Shown piece by piece: positions 14,120 through 19,085 of a DNA stretch of 60,060 nucleotides. Source of the DNA: Chloroflexota bacterium (lineage in GTDB: Bacteria > Chloroflexota > Anaerolineae > UBA1429); the NCBI GenBank assembly GCA_012719135.1, contig JAAYAW010000069.1, positions 1 through 60,060 of the forward strand, written 5' to 3'. Numbering within the stretch: the stretch's first letter is position 1; each line of letters opens with the position of its first letter. A program made the translations under genes and the position numbers. The notes under the pieces were generated by a model. The model had not been told where the DNA came from, did not search any database, and was given only the letters and a program-made list of their open reading frames with translations.

Positions 14120-15571
14120 CTACTCATCCAGCCACGCGGCCCGCACCCGGTCGCGGCCGCTCTCCTTCGCCTGATAGCATGCCTGATCTGCGCGGCCCAC
14201 CACGTCCTTGGCGGTAACCTCCTGGCCAGGATAGGACACAGCCACGCCGACGCTCGCCGTTAATGGGGTCTCCTCGCCAGCGACGTAGAACGGACGCTCA
14301 CGAATCCTGCGCCAGACTCGCGTAGCCAGCTGCAAAGCCTGCTCCTCGTTGATCTCCGGGGCCAACAGGACGAACTCGTCTCCGCCATACCGAGCCACGG
14401 AATCCGACTGGCGCAGGTTCAATCGGAGCCGATCGGCCACCTGGCACAGCAGAGCATCACCGGCCTGATGCCCATAGGTATCGTTGATAGCCTTGAGCCC
14501 CTTGTCCGGCTGCCTATCCAGATCGATCATGATGACCGCGAGCTTGCGGCCCGTCCGCTCGCTCCGAGAGAGTTCTGCGCCCAAGAGCTCATGGAAATGG
14601 CCATGATTATACAGCCCGGTAAGGCTATCTCGGGTAGCGAGATCGCGCATGCGCGCAAAGAGGTAGGTATTCACCAGAGCGATACCGCCCTGCGCGCCCA
14701 GAATCCTCAGAATGTCCAGTTCTTCGCCCTCAAAGCTGTTGCCGCCACTCCGGCCCACCAGGCAGAGACCCAGTTCGGTATCGCGGCTGCTCAGGGAAAC
14801 GGACTCCAGGATCGGCCATGGGCCTTCATCGGGCGCGGCACCCTCCGAGAGGGACGTGAATGCGATCTCGGGTTCACGATCGAGCCAGCGGCACTCGGAA
14901 CTCATCAACACGTCCTGGATAGCGCGTCGCCCTGCTTCGCCGAGAGGCAGGTGCGAGATCACAGCGGCTATCGGGCGATCGACCACGTCAGGGGAGCTGA
15001 CCAGTACGCCGCCGATATCGCACTCGATGAGGCTGGCCAGGGCCTGAGATAGCACGGTGGCGATGTCGGCCACGTCCAGGCCACCGGCCAGTGCGCGGCT
15101 GATATGCTGCACGGAATCGATGAGTTGCTGCCGCCGCCTCGCCAGTTGCCTGTTGGCCTCGGTGAGATCCTGAATCAGCTGTTCATTCGCTCGGGATAGC
15201 CGCTGCCGATCGAGCATCCGCCCCACAACAAGGGGGACTAGACCGAAATTGAACGATTCCTTCTGGAGGTAGTAGTAGGCACCGAGGCTCAGTGTGGTGG
15301 CGGCGGTTTCCAGTTCACCGTACCCCGTCAGGATGATCACGTCCGTATCCGGGTGATTCTGACGAATGTGGCGGAGAAGGCCTTCGCCCCCCATGCCGGG
15401 CATCACGAGATCGACAACGGCTACTGGGTAATGCTCCGCGGCGAGATACTTGACCGCCTCCTCACCGCTGGCTGCCTCCGTGATCAGATAGCCATCACGG
15501 CGACACATCCGGCTGAGCAGGTTTCGTATCTCGGGCGCATCATCGACGATCAGCAGCCGCTCGCCGGTCAT
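14120..15571 (-). CDS. response regulator diguanylate cyclase (REC-GAF-GGDEF)
   Basis: A 483-aa cytoplasmic signalling enzyme that would make cyclic di-GMP from GTP. An N-terminal receiver domain shows the acidic DDAPE pair, the phospho-acceptor Asp in VVDLVMPG near residue 54, and Lys in YYLQKES near 105. A short coiled coil leads to a GAF-like middle (about 165-310), then the cyclase domain with the intact active site YGGDEF. RQSD lies five residues before GGDEF, which fits the inhibitory I-site. The usual D-x-D-x-F-K-x-I-N-D strand carries about five extra residues (DLDRQPDKGLKAIND). ATGA overlaps the rpiA stop by four bases, so the two are translationally coupled. No partner histidine kinase is in the window. 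Confidence 0.92.
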   Translation of the reverse strand: MTGERLLIVDDAPEIRNLLSRMCRRDGYLITEAASGEEAVKYLAAEHYPVAVVDLVMPGMGGEGLLRHIRQNHPDTDVIILTGYGELETAATTLSLGAYYYLQKESFNFGLVPLVVGRMLDRQRLSRANEQLIQDLTEANRQLARRRQQLIDSVQHISRALAGGLDVADIATVLSQALASLIECDIGGVLVSSPDVVDRPIAAVISHLPLGEAGRRAIQDVLMSSECRWLDREPEIAFTSLSEGAAPDEGPWPILESVSLSSRDTELGLCLVGRSGGNSFEGEELDILRILGAQGGIALVNTYLFARMRDLATRDSLTGLYNHGHFHELLGAELSRSERTGRKLAVIMIDLDRQPDKGLKAINDTYGHQAGDALLCQVADRLRLNLRQSDSVARYGGDEFVLLAPEINEEQALQLATRVWRRIRERPFYVAGEETPLTASVGVAVSYPGQEVTAKDVVGRADQACYQAKESGRDRVRAAWLDE

Positions 15572-16357: not shown

Positions 16358-16387
16358 TTGACGCTCGTTCCCCCGGCCCCCTATAAT
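16358..16387 (+). promoter_or_regulatory. strong sigma-70 promoter for the CHAT-AAA gene
   Basis: TTGACG (16358-16363), 18-base spacer, TATAAT (16382-16387). Transcription would start near 16394, leaving a leader of about 30 bases. Confidence 0.75.
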
Positions 16388-16424: not shown

Positions 16425-18635
16425 ATGGATTACCTCAGCTTTGACTTGCGCATCGGTGAGTGGAGCTCCCAGACGCACAGGGGCGTCGTGGAAGTCCTGC
16501 ACTGCCCCTCAGGAGAGGGGCGGCGTTTCCCGTTCATCCTGGAAGTGGACGTTACTTCGGTTCTGCGCAGCCTGGCCGGTGATCCCACCCAGCCTCGTCG
16601 TTTCGGCCGCCTCCTCGCAAACGCGATCTTCCGACATGAAATCGCGCTCGCATGGTACGAGAGCTACCAGATCGCGCGGGAACGCCGCTGCGGCCTGCGT
16701 CTGCGGCTACACATCGAGTCCTGGGAGCTCTCTCGTCTGCCCTGGGAACTGCTATTCGACACGCGTGCCGATGAGTTCATGGCGTTTGACGAACGCGTTT
16801 CCATCACGCGCTACATCCGCCTGAGTAGCGCTCCTGCTGTCCTGCGGCGCTCCGGGACACTGCGGATCCTGGCCATCTCCGCCAGCCCCGTGGACGAAGC
16901 CCCACTGAGCTGGCAGAATGAGATCGCACTTCTGAGGGAAGCCGTGGATCCACTGGTCAAGCTCGGGCGCGTCCATCTGGACACGTGCGAGCACGCCACC
17001 AGGGAAAAGCTCCACGTCGCCCTTGTCGATAGCCATCCGGACGTCGTGCACTTTGTCGGCCACGGCGAGTATGACATGCTAGAGCAGCAGGGCTACCTGT
17101 TGATGGAGGATGACCGGCACCGATCGGTATACATGAACGCCGTCGAGGTTGCGCGGCTCCTCCGGCGCTACGGAACCAATGTGGTGATTCTCAACGCCTG
17201 TGAGACGGCCCGCGGGATCTGGGCGGGGCTCGCCCCCACGCTGGTCCGATCGGACATCCCCGCTGTGGTCGCCATGCAGTGGCCCATTGAGGATCGCGCA
17301 GCGGTGACCTTCTCCAAGGCATTCTACCGCACGCTGGCATCCGGCCGCACTGTGGATGAATGCGTATCAGAGGGTCGTGTAGCGATGGATGCAGCCATTC
17401 CTCACTCGCTCATGTGGGCCGCCCCCGTGCTTTTCATCCGCTCGATGAACGGCCAACTGTGGACGCCAGATCAGAGCTCTGAACCCCCTGCTGATCGTCG
17501 AGAAGAGGGCCCTTCTAGAGCATCGGGACGTCAACCAGCGTCGGCACCTGATGCCAAAGAGCGCATTTTTCGCACGCGGGGCCCGCTGCGAATGCCCGAG
17601 GATCGCGAGATCATCATGGATCGCCCAGAACTGGGCCGTGCACTCCAGATAGCGCGGCAGCCAGCCGTAAGCCAGTATCTCGCGATTCTGAGCGCCCGCC
17701 AGACGGGCAAGACGACGCTGTTGCTCCAGCTGATGGACGAACTGCGTGACCGTTACGCCTGCGCCTTTATCGATCTGTCCGTCCTGCGCGGGCAGGATTC
17801 CCGGGACTGCTTCCGGCTCGTCGGATCGCAGCTGGCCGGTGCCCTGGCGGATTGTGACTGTGACGTCGCTAGCCTGGGAGCAACGCCGGATAACCCGGTG
17901 GCGTTCCTGGATTACCTGCAGCGCCTCGCACAAGCGGTGCCTGTCCTTCGGATCGTGCTGATGATGGATGAAGTCGGCGCCCTTTCACCGCAGGTATCGG
18001 ACACTTTCTTCAACACGGTCCGCACGATTTTCACCCAGGGGCGCGGGCTCAGGAACGCATTGGCCAAATACCTGTTCGTGTTCAGCGGCGCCGTCGATCT
18101 GTATGGCCTGACCTTTGGCACCAACTCCCCACTCAACATCTGTGAAAAGATCTACCTGGAGGATCTGGCGCCGCAGCAGGTCGAGCGACTCGTATCCGCG
18201 TTCTCGCAACGGGATACCGCGGTCGCAGCGGATGTGGGAGCGGCGATCTACGCACTGACCTCGGGCCACCCCTATCTGAGCATGCGCCTCTGTTCGCTCA
18301 TGGAGGATGCTCAACCGGCTCGCATCACCGCCCAGACAGTCCAGCGTGCCGCAGCTCAGATCCTCGTGGAGGACGACAACCTCCGCCATCTCATCCAGGA
18401 GCTGGAGAGCCAGCCCGGCGCCCGGAGACATCTGCGGAGCATTGTCATAGAGGGACAGTCAGTTCCCTTCAGCCGGAACAACCCTATTCTGGCTGCGCTC
18501 GAGATGATGGGCGCCATCCGGCCAGGCCAACCGTGCAGCGTCAGGAACGCGCTCTATGAGCGCGCTCTGCGCGAGTACTACAGTCTGCCTGCGCACGCCG
18601 AGGGCTCAGGGCGGCCGTCCGCGAGCTCTGGATAG
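16425..18635 (+). CDS. CHAT protease domain fused to AAA-like (AAA_35) ATPase
   Basis: A 736-aa two-module protein. Residues to about 345 form a caspase-like CHAT domain with the expected dyad: His in HFVGHGEY (about 213) and Cys in ILNACETA (about 259). After a Pro/Ser-rich linker (about 350-380) comes an AAA_35-type NTPase: ISARQTGKTT-like P-loop (written LSARQTGKTT here, about 422-431), Walker B LMMDEVG near 515, then the helical region and winged-helix-like end usual for the family. Such proteins are inferred to switch protease activity by nucleotide state. No TPR, WD40 or other sensor repeats are present and no substrate gene is adjacent. Start ATG 16425 (GTG 16422 and TTG 16419 also possible); the ribosome site is weak. 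Confidence 0.85.
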   Translation: MDYLSFDLRIGEWSSQTHRGVVEVLHCPSGEGRRFPFILEVDVTSVLRSLAGDPTQPRRFGRLLANAIFRHEIALAWYESYQIARERRCGLRLRLHIESWELSRLPWELLFDTRADEFMAFDERVSITRYIRLSSAPAVLRRSGTLRILAISASPVDEAPLSWQNEIALLREAVDPLVKLGRVHLDTCEHATREKLHVALVDSHPDVVHFVGHGEYDMLEQQGYLLMEDDRHRSVYMNAVEVARLLRRYGTNVVILNACETARGIWAGLAPTLVRSDIPAVVAMQWPIEDRAAVTFSKAFYRTLASGRTVDECVSEGRVAMDAAIPHSLMWAAPVLFIRSMNGQLWTPDQSSEPPADRREEGPSRASGRQPASAPDAKERIFRTRGPLRMPEDREIIMDRPELGRALQIARQPAVSQYLAILSARQTGKTTLLLQLMDELRDRYACAFIDLSVLRGQDSRDCFRLVGSQLAGALADCDCDVASLGATPDNPVAFLDYLQRLAQAVPVLRIVLMMDEVGALSPQVSDTFFNTVRTIFTQGRGLRNALAKYLFVFSGAVDLYGLTFGTNSPLNICEKIYLEDLAPQQVERLVSAFSQRDTAVAADVGAAIYALTSGHPYLSMRLCSLMEDAQPARITAQTVQRAAAQILVEDDNLRHLIQELESQPGARRHLRSIVIEGQSVPFSRNNPILAALEMMGAIRPGQPCSVRNALYERALREYYSLPAHAEGSGRPSASSG

Positions 18636-18657: not shown

Positions 18658-18686
18658 TTGACAGCCCCCTTTTGCGTCTCTATAAT
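18658..18686 (+). promoter_or_regulatory. consensus sigma-70 promoter
   Basis: TTGACA (18658-18663), exactly 17 bases, TATAAT (18681-18686): a perfect consensus promoter, 30 bases before the small membrane protein's ATG. Confidence 0.85.
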
Positions 18687-18716
18687 GGCCGTCAGCCTGA
18701 ACGGGGGGAGCGACTG

Positions 18717-19085
18717 ATGATCAGGAAACGACTACCGGCCAGCCTGTGGATTGTGGCTATCCTGCAGTTCGTTGCCCCGCTGCTGTTGCCGCCATCGTTC
18801 TACGCGGGCATCAGCCCCGCGCTGTGGATCGTCGTTGCGGTGGTGTTTGCCTTGCTCGGCATCAACCTCCTTCGCCTGAAGGACTGGGCCCGGGTGGCGA
18901 CGATCTTTGTCCAGGGCTTTAGCATTCTGGTTCGGCTCCTTACGGGAATCGGCAACGTGATACCCACGCAAGGGGCCCCGATGGACAGTGTCCTCTTGAT
19001 CTCGTCCATCTGCTCGATGTTGCTTTCCGGCCTCATTCTTTTCCACGTCGATCAGCCGGATATCCAGCTGCTCATGCAGCAGTGA
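18717..19085 (+). CDS. small four-helix membrane protein, unknown function
   Basis: A 122-aa integral membrane protein with about four hydrophobic helices (LWIVAILQFVAPLLL; LWIVVAVVFALLGINLL; a weaker third around FVQGFSILVRLL; LLISSICSMLLSGLILF). I do not recognise a named family beyond short DUF-type membrane proteins. The start is well set: ATG 18717 follows GGGGGGAG (18703-18710) by six bases; an in-frame start at 18672 would place the promoter -10 inside the gene. The perfect promoter suggests constitutively high transcription, which is striking for an orphan protein. Confidence 0.75.
   Translation: MIRKRLPASLWIVAILQFVAPLLLPPSFYAGISPALWIVVAVVFALLGINLLRLKDWARVATIFVQGFSILVRLLTGIGNVIPTQGAPMDSVLLISSICSMLLSGLILFHVDQPDIQLLMQQ

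Follow-up and report, generated by a model that had tools for sequence, protein, structure and literature searches.

In one Anaerolineae family, a stably inherited gene with a single copy per genome joins a CHAT protease module to a predicted STAND-type ATPase

Analysis of a 60,060-nucleotide stretch of Chloroflexota DNA (the window) indicates that a gene joining a CHAT module to an AAA_35 ATPase is inherited stably and in single copy within one Anaerolineae family, unlike a mobile defense gene. Conservation of the chain and of its active-site residues extends across the family, and 10 of 13 orthologues have a near-consensus promoter, which places the feature beyond chance. The predicted anatomy is a separase- or TPR-CHAT-like protease followed by a STAND-like ATPase. 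In animals, the two halves of the apoptosome, a caspase-like protease and a STAND switch (CED-3 and CED-4), are usually separate proteins. Here, both predicted halves lie in one chain of 736 residues that is free of sensor repeats and is inherited like a housekeeping gene.

Gene and domain organization

The open reading frame was confirmed on the forward strand from the ATG at 16,425 to the stop codon ending at 18,635, encoding a protein of 736 amino acids (P0001) with conserved orthologues and two Pfam matches above the curated cut-offs. CHAT (PF12770) was matched over residues 88–336 (E value, 1.5e-31; 110.4 bits against a cut-off of 24), and AAA_35 (PF14516) over residues 418–713 (E value, 5.3e-16; 58.8 bits against a cut-off of 27). 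From the structure model and the invariant dyad, the complete CHAT protease module, with an N-terminal half and a catalytic half, was assigned to residues 1–347 (16,425–17,465). It carries the motifs HFVGHG with His213 (codon 17,061–17,063) and LNACE with Cys259 (codon 17,199–17,201). A disordered and fast-evolving linker, delimited by pLDDT and dN/dS, follows at about residues 348–379 (17,466–17,561), and the predicted STAND-like ATPase, placed by structural matches and conserved motifs, occupies residues 380–726 (17,562–18,602). The ATPase motifs are the P-loop at 421–433 (ARQTGKTT, with G428-K429-T430; GKTT spans 428–431), the Walker B motif at 509–516 (IVLMMDE with Asp515), and GHPYL at 614–618.

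His213, Cys259, the P-loop, and Asp515 all stand where the original prediction of a CHAT dyad and an AAA NTPase in one chain had placed them. Its statement that sensor repeats are absent was also borne out, as Pfam found no repeat domain in the 736-residue chain: there is no C-terminal LRR, WD, or TPR sensor, and the ATPase ends the chain. C-terminal repeat sensors are common in the STAND class and not universal, so their absence does not exclude the protein from this class. The genome of the window (2.64 Mb, 99% complete) contains a single CHAT gene and a single AAA_35 gene.

Predicted structure

The AlphaFold2 model of the protein (pLDDT, 89.9; pTM, 0.60) consists of two separate parts, with residues 1–347 modelled at a pLDDT of about 90 and the linker falling below 50 at residues 352–376. 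The protease part (residues 2–347) aligned with TPR-CHAT (Csx29) at Z 19–21 and with separase at Z 17–20 (VIA-align). The ATPase part (residues 380–726) aligned with the archaeal ATPase 2qen at Z 22.9, with CED-4 at 17.9, and with plant NLR resistosomes at 16–19. The STAND arrangement of an ORC/CDC6-like core with C-terminal helical and winged-helix parts was recovered over approximately 300 residues (Z 16–23), which is evidence of fold only. GHPYL, a GxP-like motif, is invariant in the 11 complete orthologues, and its GHP is retained in AAA_35 relatives. A sequence-profile search of the PDB with the ATPase part returned no STAND structure and nothing useful. The AAA part is thus predicted to be a STAND-type switch solely by its fold and GxP-like motif, and a defined class of control mechanism may therefore apply to it. 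The placement of the two parts relative to each other has low confidence in the model, as the pTM indicates, so autoinhibition cannot be read from it.

Distribution and inheritance

The surveys covered sampled genomes, mostly fragmentary metagenome-assembled genomes. The CHAT–AAA_35 chain was present in 13 of the 15 genomes of the family, with at most one gene per genome; one orthologue is split over two contigs (G007), and another is cut at a contig end (G013). The two family genomes with no match are 82% and 94% complete, and true absence from them is thus unproven. Surveys of the class (298 genomes) and the phylum (301 genomes), in which the best candidates of each genome were scored, gave no full-length match beyond the family. 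The histidine and cysteine, whose loss from close homologues had been named beforehand as evidence against the prediction, are intact in the window protein and in 12 of 12 other orthologues; the P-loop is present in all orthologues that cover that region, and Asp515 is likewise conserved. A degenerate protease was ruled out by the same 13 intact dyads.

The tree of the CHAT–AAA_35 protein and that of the tRNA-nucleotidyltransferase agree on all groups supported in both, namely, G000 with G001, G004 with G014, the union of these two pairs, and G002 with G010; neither tree resolves most of the deeper branches. Compared with the window sequences, near relatives show similar identities for this protein and for the housekeeping protein (70% and 73%, respectively, in G001; 65% and 71% in G004), and with greater distance the identity of the CHAT–AAA_35 protein becomes the lower of the two, the gap being widest in G006 (40% and 61%). 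For G004/G014, the closest pair that could be used, dN/dS was 0.046 for CHAT, 0.112 for AAA, 0.41 for the linker, and 0.33 for a C-terminal domain described below; the whole gene gave 0.148 and the tRNA-nucleotidyltransferase 0.068. These results demonstrate that the CHAT module is under strong purifying selection.

A third domain lost from the genus of the window

About 170 additional C-terminal residues are present in 7 of the 11 orthologues with a complete 3′ end, and the split gene of G007 provides an eighth case. A model built from the eight sequences (pLDDT, 84.8) has its elements in the order of a PD-(D/E)XK-type fold, and its best structural matches, all of moderate Z, were the R.BspD6I small subunit (8.4), FokI (7.1), HindIII (6.6), and Shedu (6.5); Foldseek alone gave no match to this model with an E value below 0.001. 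On the third strand, L-x-R/C or similar residues stand in place of the expected E-x-K pair, and the aspartate occurs in some rows only, so that the domain appears to be a PD-(D/E)XK nuclease fold that is inactive.

The two-module form described originally is not the basic type of this protein in the family. The genus of the window groups with G004 and G014, both of which bear the third domain, and the two-domain form is therefore best explained by domain loss in this genus. The higher dN/dS of the third domain agrees with its being dispensable. There is no room for a remnant of it downstream in the window, where the next promoter starts 22 bp past the stop codon.

Promoter

The promoter of the gene, TTGACG-18-TATAAT at 16,358–16,387 on the forward strand, agrees with the consensus at 11 of 12 positions, and only four sites with at least 11 of 12 occur across the 60-kb window. 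Despite differing gene neighborhoods, the ten orthologues mentioned above have a near-consensus TTGAC–TATAAT promoter, mostly with TTGACG or TTGACC and most commonly with an 18-base spacer, which upholds the strong promoter originally described for the window. CHAT–AAA_35 is a single-gene unit with signals for constant expression. A near-consensus promoter argues for control after transcription and thereby favors the earlier suggestion that activity is held in check at that stage.

Gene neighborhood

Immediately downstream lies a neighbor that we place outside the system, a four-helix membrane gene (P0002; open reading frame, 18,717–19,085; 18,658–19,085 with its promoter, forward strand). Its promoter, TTGACA-17-TATAAT at 18,658–18,686, matches all 12 consensus positions and is as perfect as had been claimed. 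By profile search, the four-helix protein occurs once in every family genome (15 of 15), even in the two that have no CHAT–AAA_35 match, and it matched no Pfam family above the cut-off. The membrane gene adjoins the CHAT gene in five genomes (G000, G001, G004, G014, and G006) and lies elsewhere in ten; in G009, it heads a block of an antiporter-like trio, RuvA, RuvC, and YebC, and the CHAT gene is not there. It is thus an independent, conserved orphan core gene. The earlier proposal of a partner or target, in which the two genes would form a protease–target or protease–effector pair, draws on the five adjacencies; against these stand the copies in all 15 genomes, the ten separate locations, the G009 block, and the separate promoters of the two genes in the window, and we consider such a pair scarcely credible.

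The neighbors checked in the window were AIR-synthase-like, GGDEF response regulator, antiporter-like, YebC, and FtsK genes, and RpiA, RuvA, and RuvC near the CHAT gene were named from their sequences. The 3′ side of the gene carries antiporter-like genes linked to RuvA/RuvC in the group of the window, TruD-like genes in G012 and G009, and M55 DppA-like genes in G003, G002, and G010; the TruD- and DppA-like genes were identified by their N-terminal sequences. As downstream genes vary by group, no conserved neighbor offers itself as a candidate substrate. The original prediction had listed this lack of a conserved neighbor as evidence against itself; it argues for a monocistronic gene and not against a real one. 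No defense genes were recognized beside the CHAT gene with the libraries used.

Separately, the AIR-synthase-like gene and RpiA are separated in the window by a response regulator–GGDEF gene (14,120–15,571, reverse strand); in the sister genome G001 (L032, 7,224–8,994), the two adjoin without it.

Relatives and known systems

Homologues with the same two-domain order, which the original prediction had proposed to seek, were found among the family orthologues and on a cyanobacterial plasmid. The Tolypothrix sp. PCC 7910 protein WP_167727962.1 (709 amino acids) has the same two domains in the same order, likewise without repeats, and shares 27% identity with the window protein across nearly the full chain. 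Its gene differs in lying on the mobilizable plasmid NZ_CP050444.1, where a gene for another AAA_35 protein, this one bearing TPR and GUN4, follows 12 bp downstream; the two genes (L156, 4,997–9,652, forward strand) may form a two-ATPase system.

Outside the family, the closest relatives of the ATPase module are proteins in which AAA_35 is followed by a TIR-like domain (L043, 8,485–10,137, reverse strand, with PF10137 above the cut-off; also L089). The AAA part is far nearer to these Anaerolineae proteins (E value, 1e-99) than to the Tolypothrix AAA (E value, 1e-10), which suggests that the CHAT–AAA_35 fusion may have arisen twice. Other combinations include AAA_35 followed by CHAT in one chain, the reverse order (L049, 9,233–11,533, reverse strand), and AAA_35 with hydrophobic C-terminal tails (L044–L046). 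Such varied effectors on related AAA_35 modules are expected of a shared switch. CHAT was also found with WD40 (L047) and with a SIR2-like domain (L050, 8,398–10,440, reverse strand).

Among characterized proteases, the whole CHAT module and its His–Cys dyad resemble TPR-CHAT (Csx29) of the type III-E CRISPR Craspase, at the Z scores given above. In Csx29, however, the TPRs and the CRISPR RNA complex are the sensor and there is no ATPase. Membership in Craspase was ruled out, with no TPR found by Pfam and no type III-E CRISPR locus among the checked neighbors. The closest PDB sequence match was the filament-forming SAVED-CHAT protease 8tl0 (profile E value, 1.1e-13; His and Cys aligned), which differs in using a SAVED domain as sensor and in lacking an ATPase. 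Pfam found no SAVED domain in the window protein, and the PADLOC SAVED_CHAT model matched residues 180–354 only. HetF (NF045509) was rejected at 82 bits against an equivalog cut-off of 1200, with the CHAT part alone aligned.

The ATPase resembles CED-4, plant NLR resistosomes, and the archaeal STAND ATPases 2qen and 2fna in its fold (Z 16–23) and in the GHP conserved at the GxP place. In CED-4 and the NLRs, by contrast, a caspase-type protease is not in the same chain, and the window protein has no LRR or CARD. Fusions of caspase-superfamily peptidases with STAND NTPases have been described in conflict systems, e.g., EACC1 (PMC7159879, PMC8195603). EACC1-type systems are multi-gene and diversified, whereas ours is a lone stable gene with no recognized partner. 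Peptidase–STAND fusions are thus already known; the present one is unusual in that it is inherited as a stable core gene, has kept its promoter, and has lost an accessory domain. Searching the literature for the name AAA_35 brought up unrelated text only.

A record labelled "Bacteriophage sp." (MT836801.1; 8.7 kb, unannotated) contains at 977–2,065 a CHAT module 34% identical to that of the window protein. Spread by phage was rejected, as this was the only such match and covered the CHAT part only.

Proposed mechanism and alternative readings

STAND NTPases are NTP-dependent assembly switches (PMC8195603), and in Craspase, the residues of the CHAT dyad stay separated as long as the complex has not sensed target RNA, so that activation is allosteric (PMC9729208). 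From these two precedents, we infer that nucleotide exchange and ATPase oligomerization would release the protease. The reading that we prefer, which on the combined analyses we hold at about even chances, is that of a nucleotide-switched protease in one chain, active upon STAND assembly and serving as a chromosomal, vertically inherited regulator of stress or cell death rather than as a mobile phage-defense module. In this "apoptosome-like" switch, the caspase/separase-type CHAT module (1–347) would be tethered by the flexible linker to the STAND-class ATPase (380–726), which as an ADP-bound monomer would hold the protease inactive. An internal signal, such as a ligand, a protein partner, or the nucleotide level, would swap the nucleotide, and the ATPase would oligomerize. 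Adjacent CHAT domains would thereby be brought together or relaxed to the active form, which would cleave a single host protein or a small number of them. As the gene would always be transcribed from its sigma-A type promoter, control would rest with the nucleotide state. A single purified protein could test nucleotide exchange alone as the on-switch of a CHAT protease.

Besides the low-confidence placement of the two parts and the fold-based STAND assignment given above, two points speak against this switch. STAND proteins usually carry a sensor, and here none was recognized and the third domain, which might serve as one, is gone from the genus of the window; moreover, a protease toxic to its own cell would not usually be expressed from so strong a promoter. 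A fuller version, in which the gene would encode a complete one-chain apoptosome and act as a constitutive, family-wide core gene for a cell-fate switch, with the STAND part as sensor and the dispensable pseudo-nuclease as an optional input, appears doubtful to us.

Anti-phage abortive infection, in which the STAND part would sense a phage component directly and CHAT would kill or arrest the cell, is suggested by the PADLOC SAVED_CHAT and BovA models that match the CHAT part, by the TIR-like effector that related AAA_35 proteins bear above the Pfam cut-off, by the mobilizable plasmid of the cyanobacterial CHAT–AAA_35 gene, and by the discussion of similar fusions as conflict systems (PMC8195603, PMC7159879). 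The gene of this family, however, is present in 13 of 15 genomes with at most one copy in each and shows no tree conflict, its divergence in close pairs resembles that of housekeeping genes, and defense genes were not recognized beside it. Defense genes are usually patchy and mobile. We therefore regard the defense setting, which was first brought up for such fusions in general, as unlikely for this gene, and CHAT–NTPase fusions should not all be classed as mobile phage defense.

Core-gene inheritance and the conserved strong promoter would also suit a housekeeping regulatory protease like separase or cyanobacterial HetF, which would not kill the cell but cleave a specific protein involved in dividing, in forming filaments, or in adapting to stress; the module is a structural match to separase, and HetF was the sole NCBIfam model matched. 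That match, however, stays at 82 against 1200 and within the CHAT part, a division or development gene is never a constant neighbor, and two family genomes have no match, although one of them is only 82% complete. A role of this kind seems to us rather improbable. Since an AAA-type ATPase and a peptidase share one chain, energy-dependent degradation was also considered, with an AAA ring unfolding substrates and feeding them to CHAT, as in Lon or FtsH. The ATPase model, however, matches STAND/ORC-type ATPases and not unfoldases, the linker is disordered, and one orthologue without the Walker B glutamate has kept its protease dyad, which makes this mode of action very improbable.

The orthologue in question, from G006 (L042, 796–3,075, reverse strand), is fast evolving and has Asp-Gln in its Walker B motif. 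It is a candidate for a naturally hydrolysis-impaired form, and this change combined with an intact dyad is easier to reconcile with a binding switch than with a motor.
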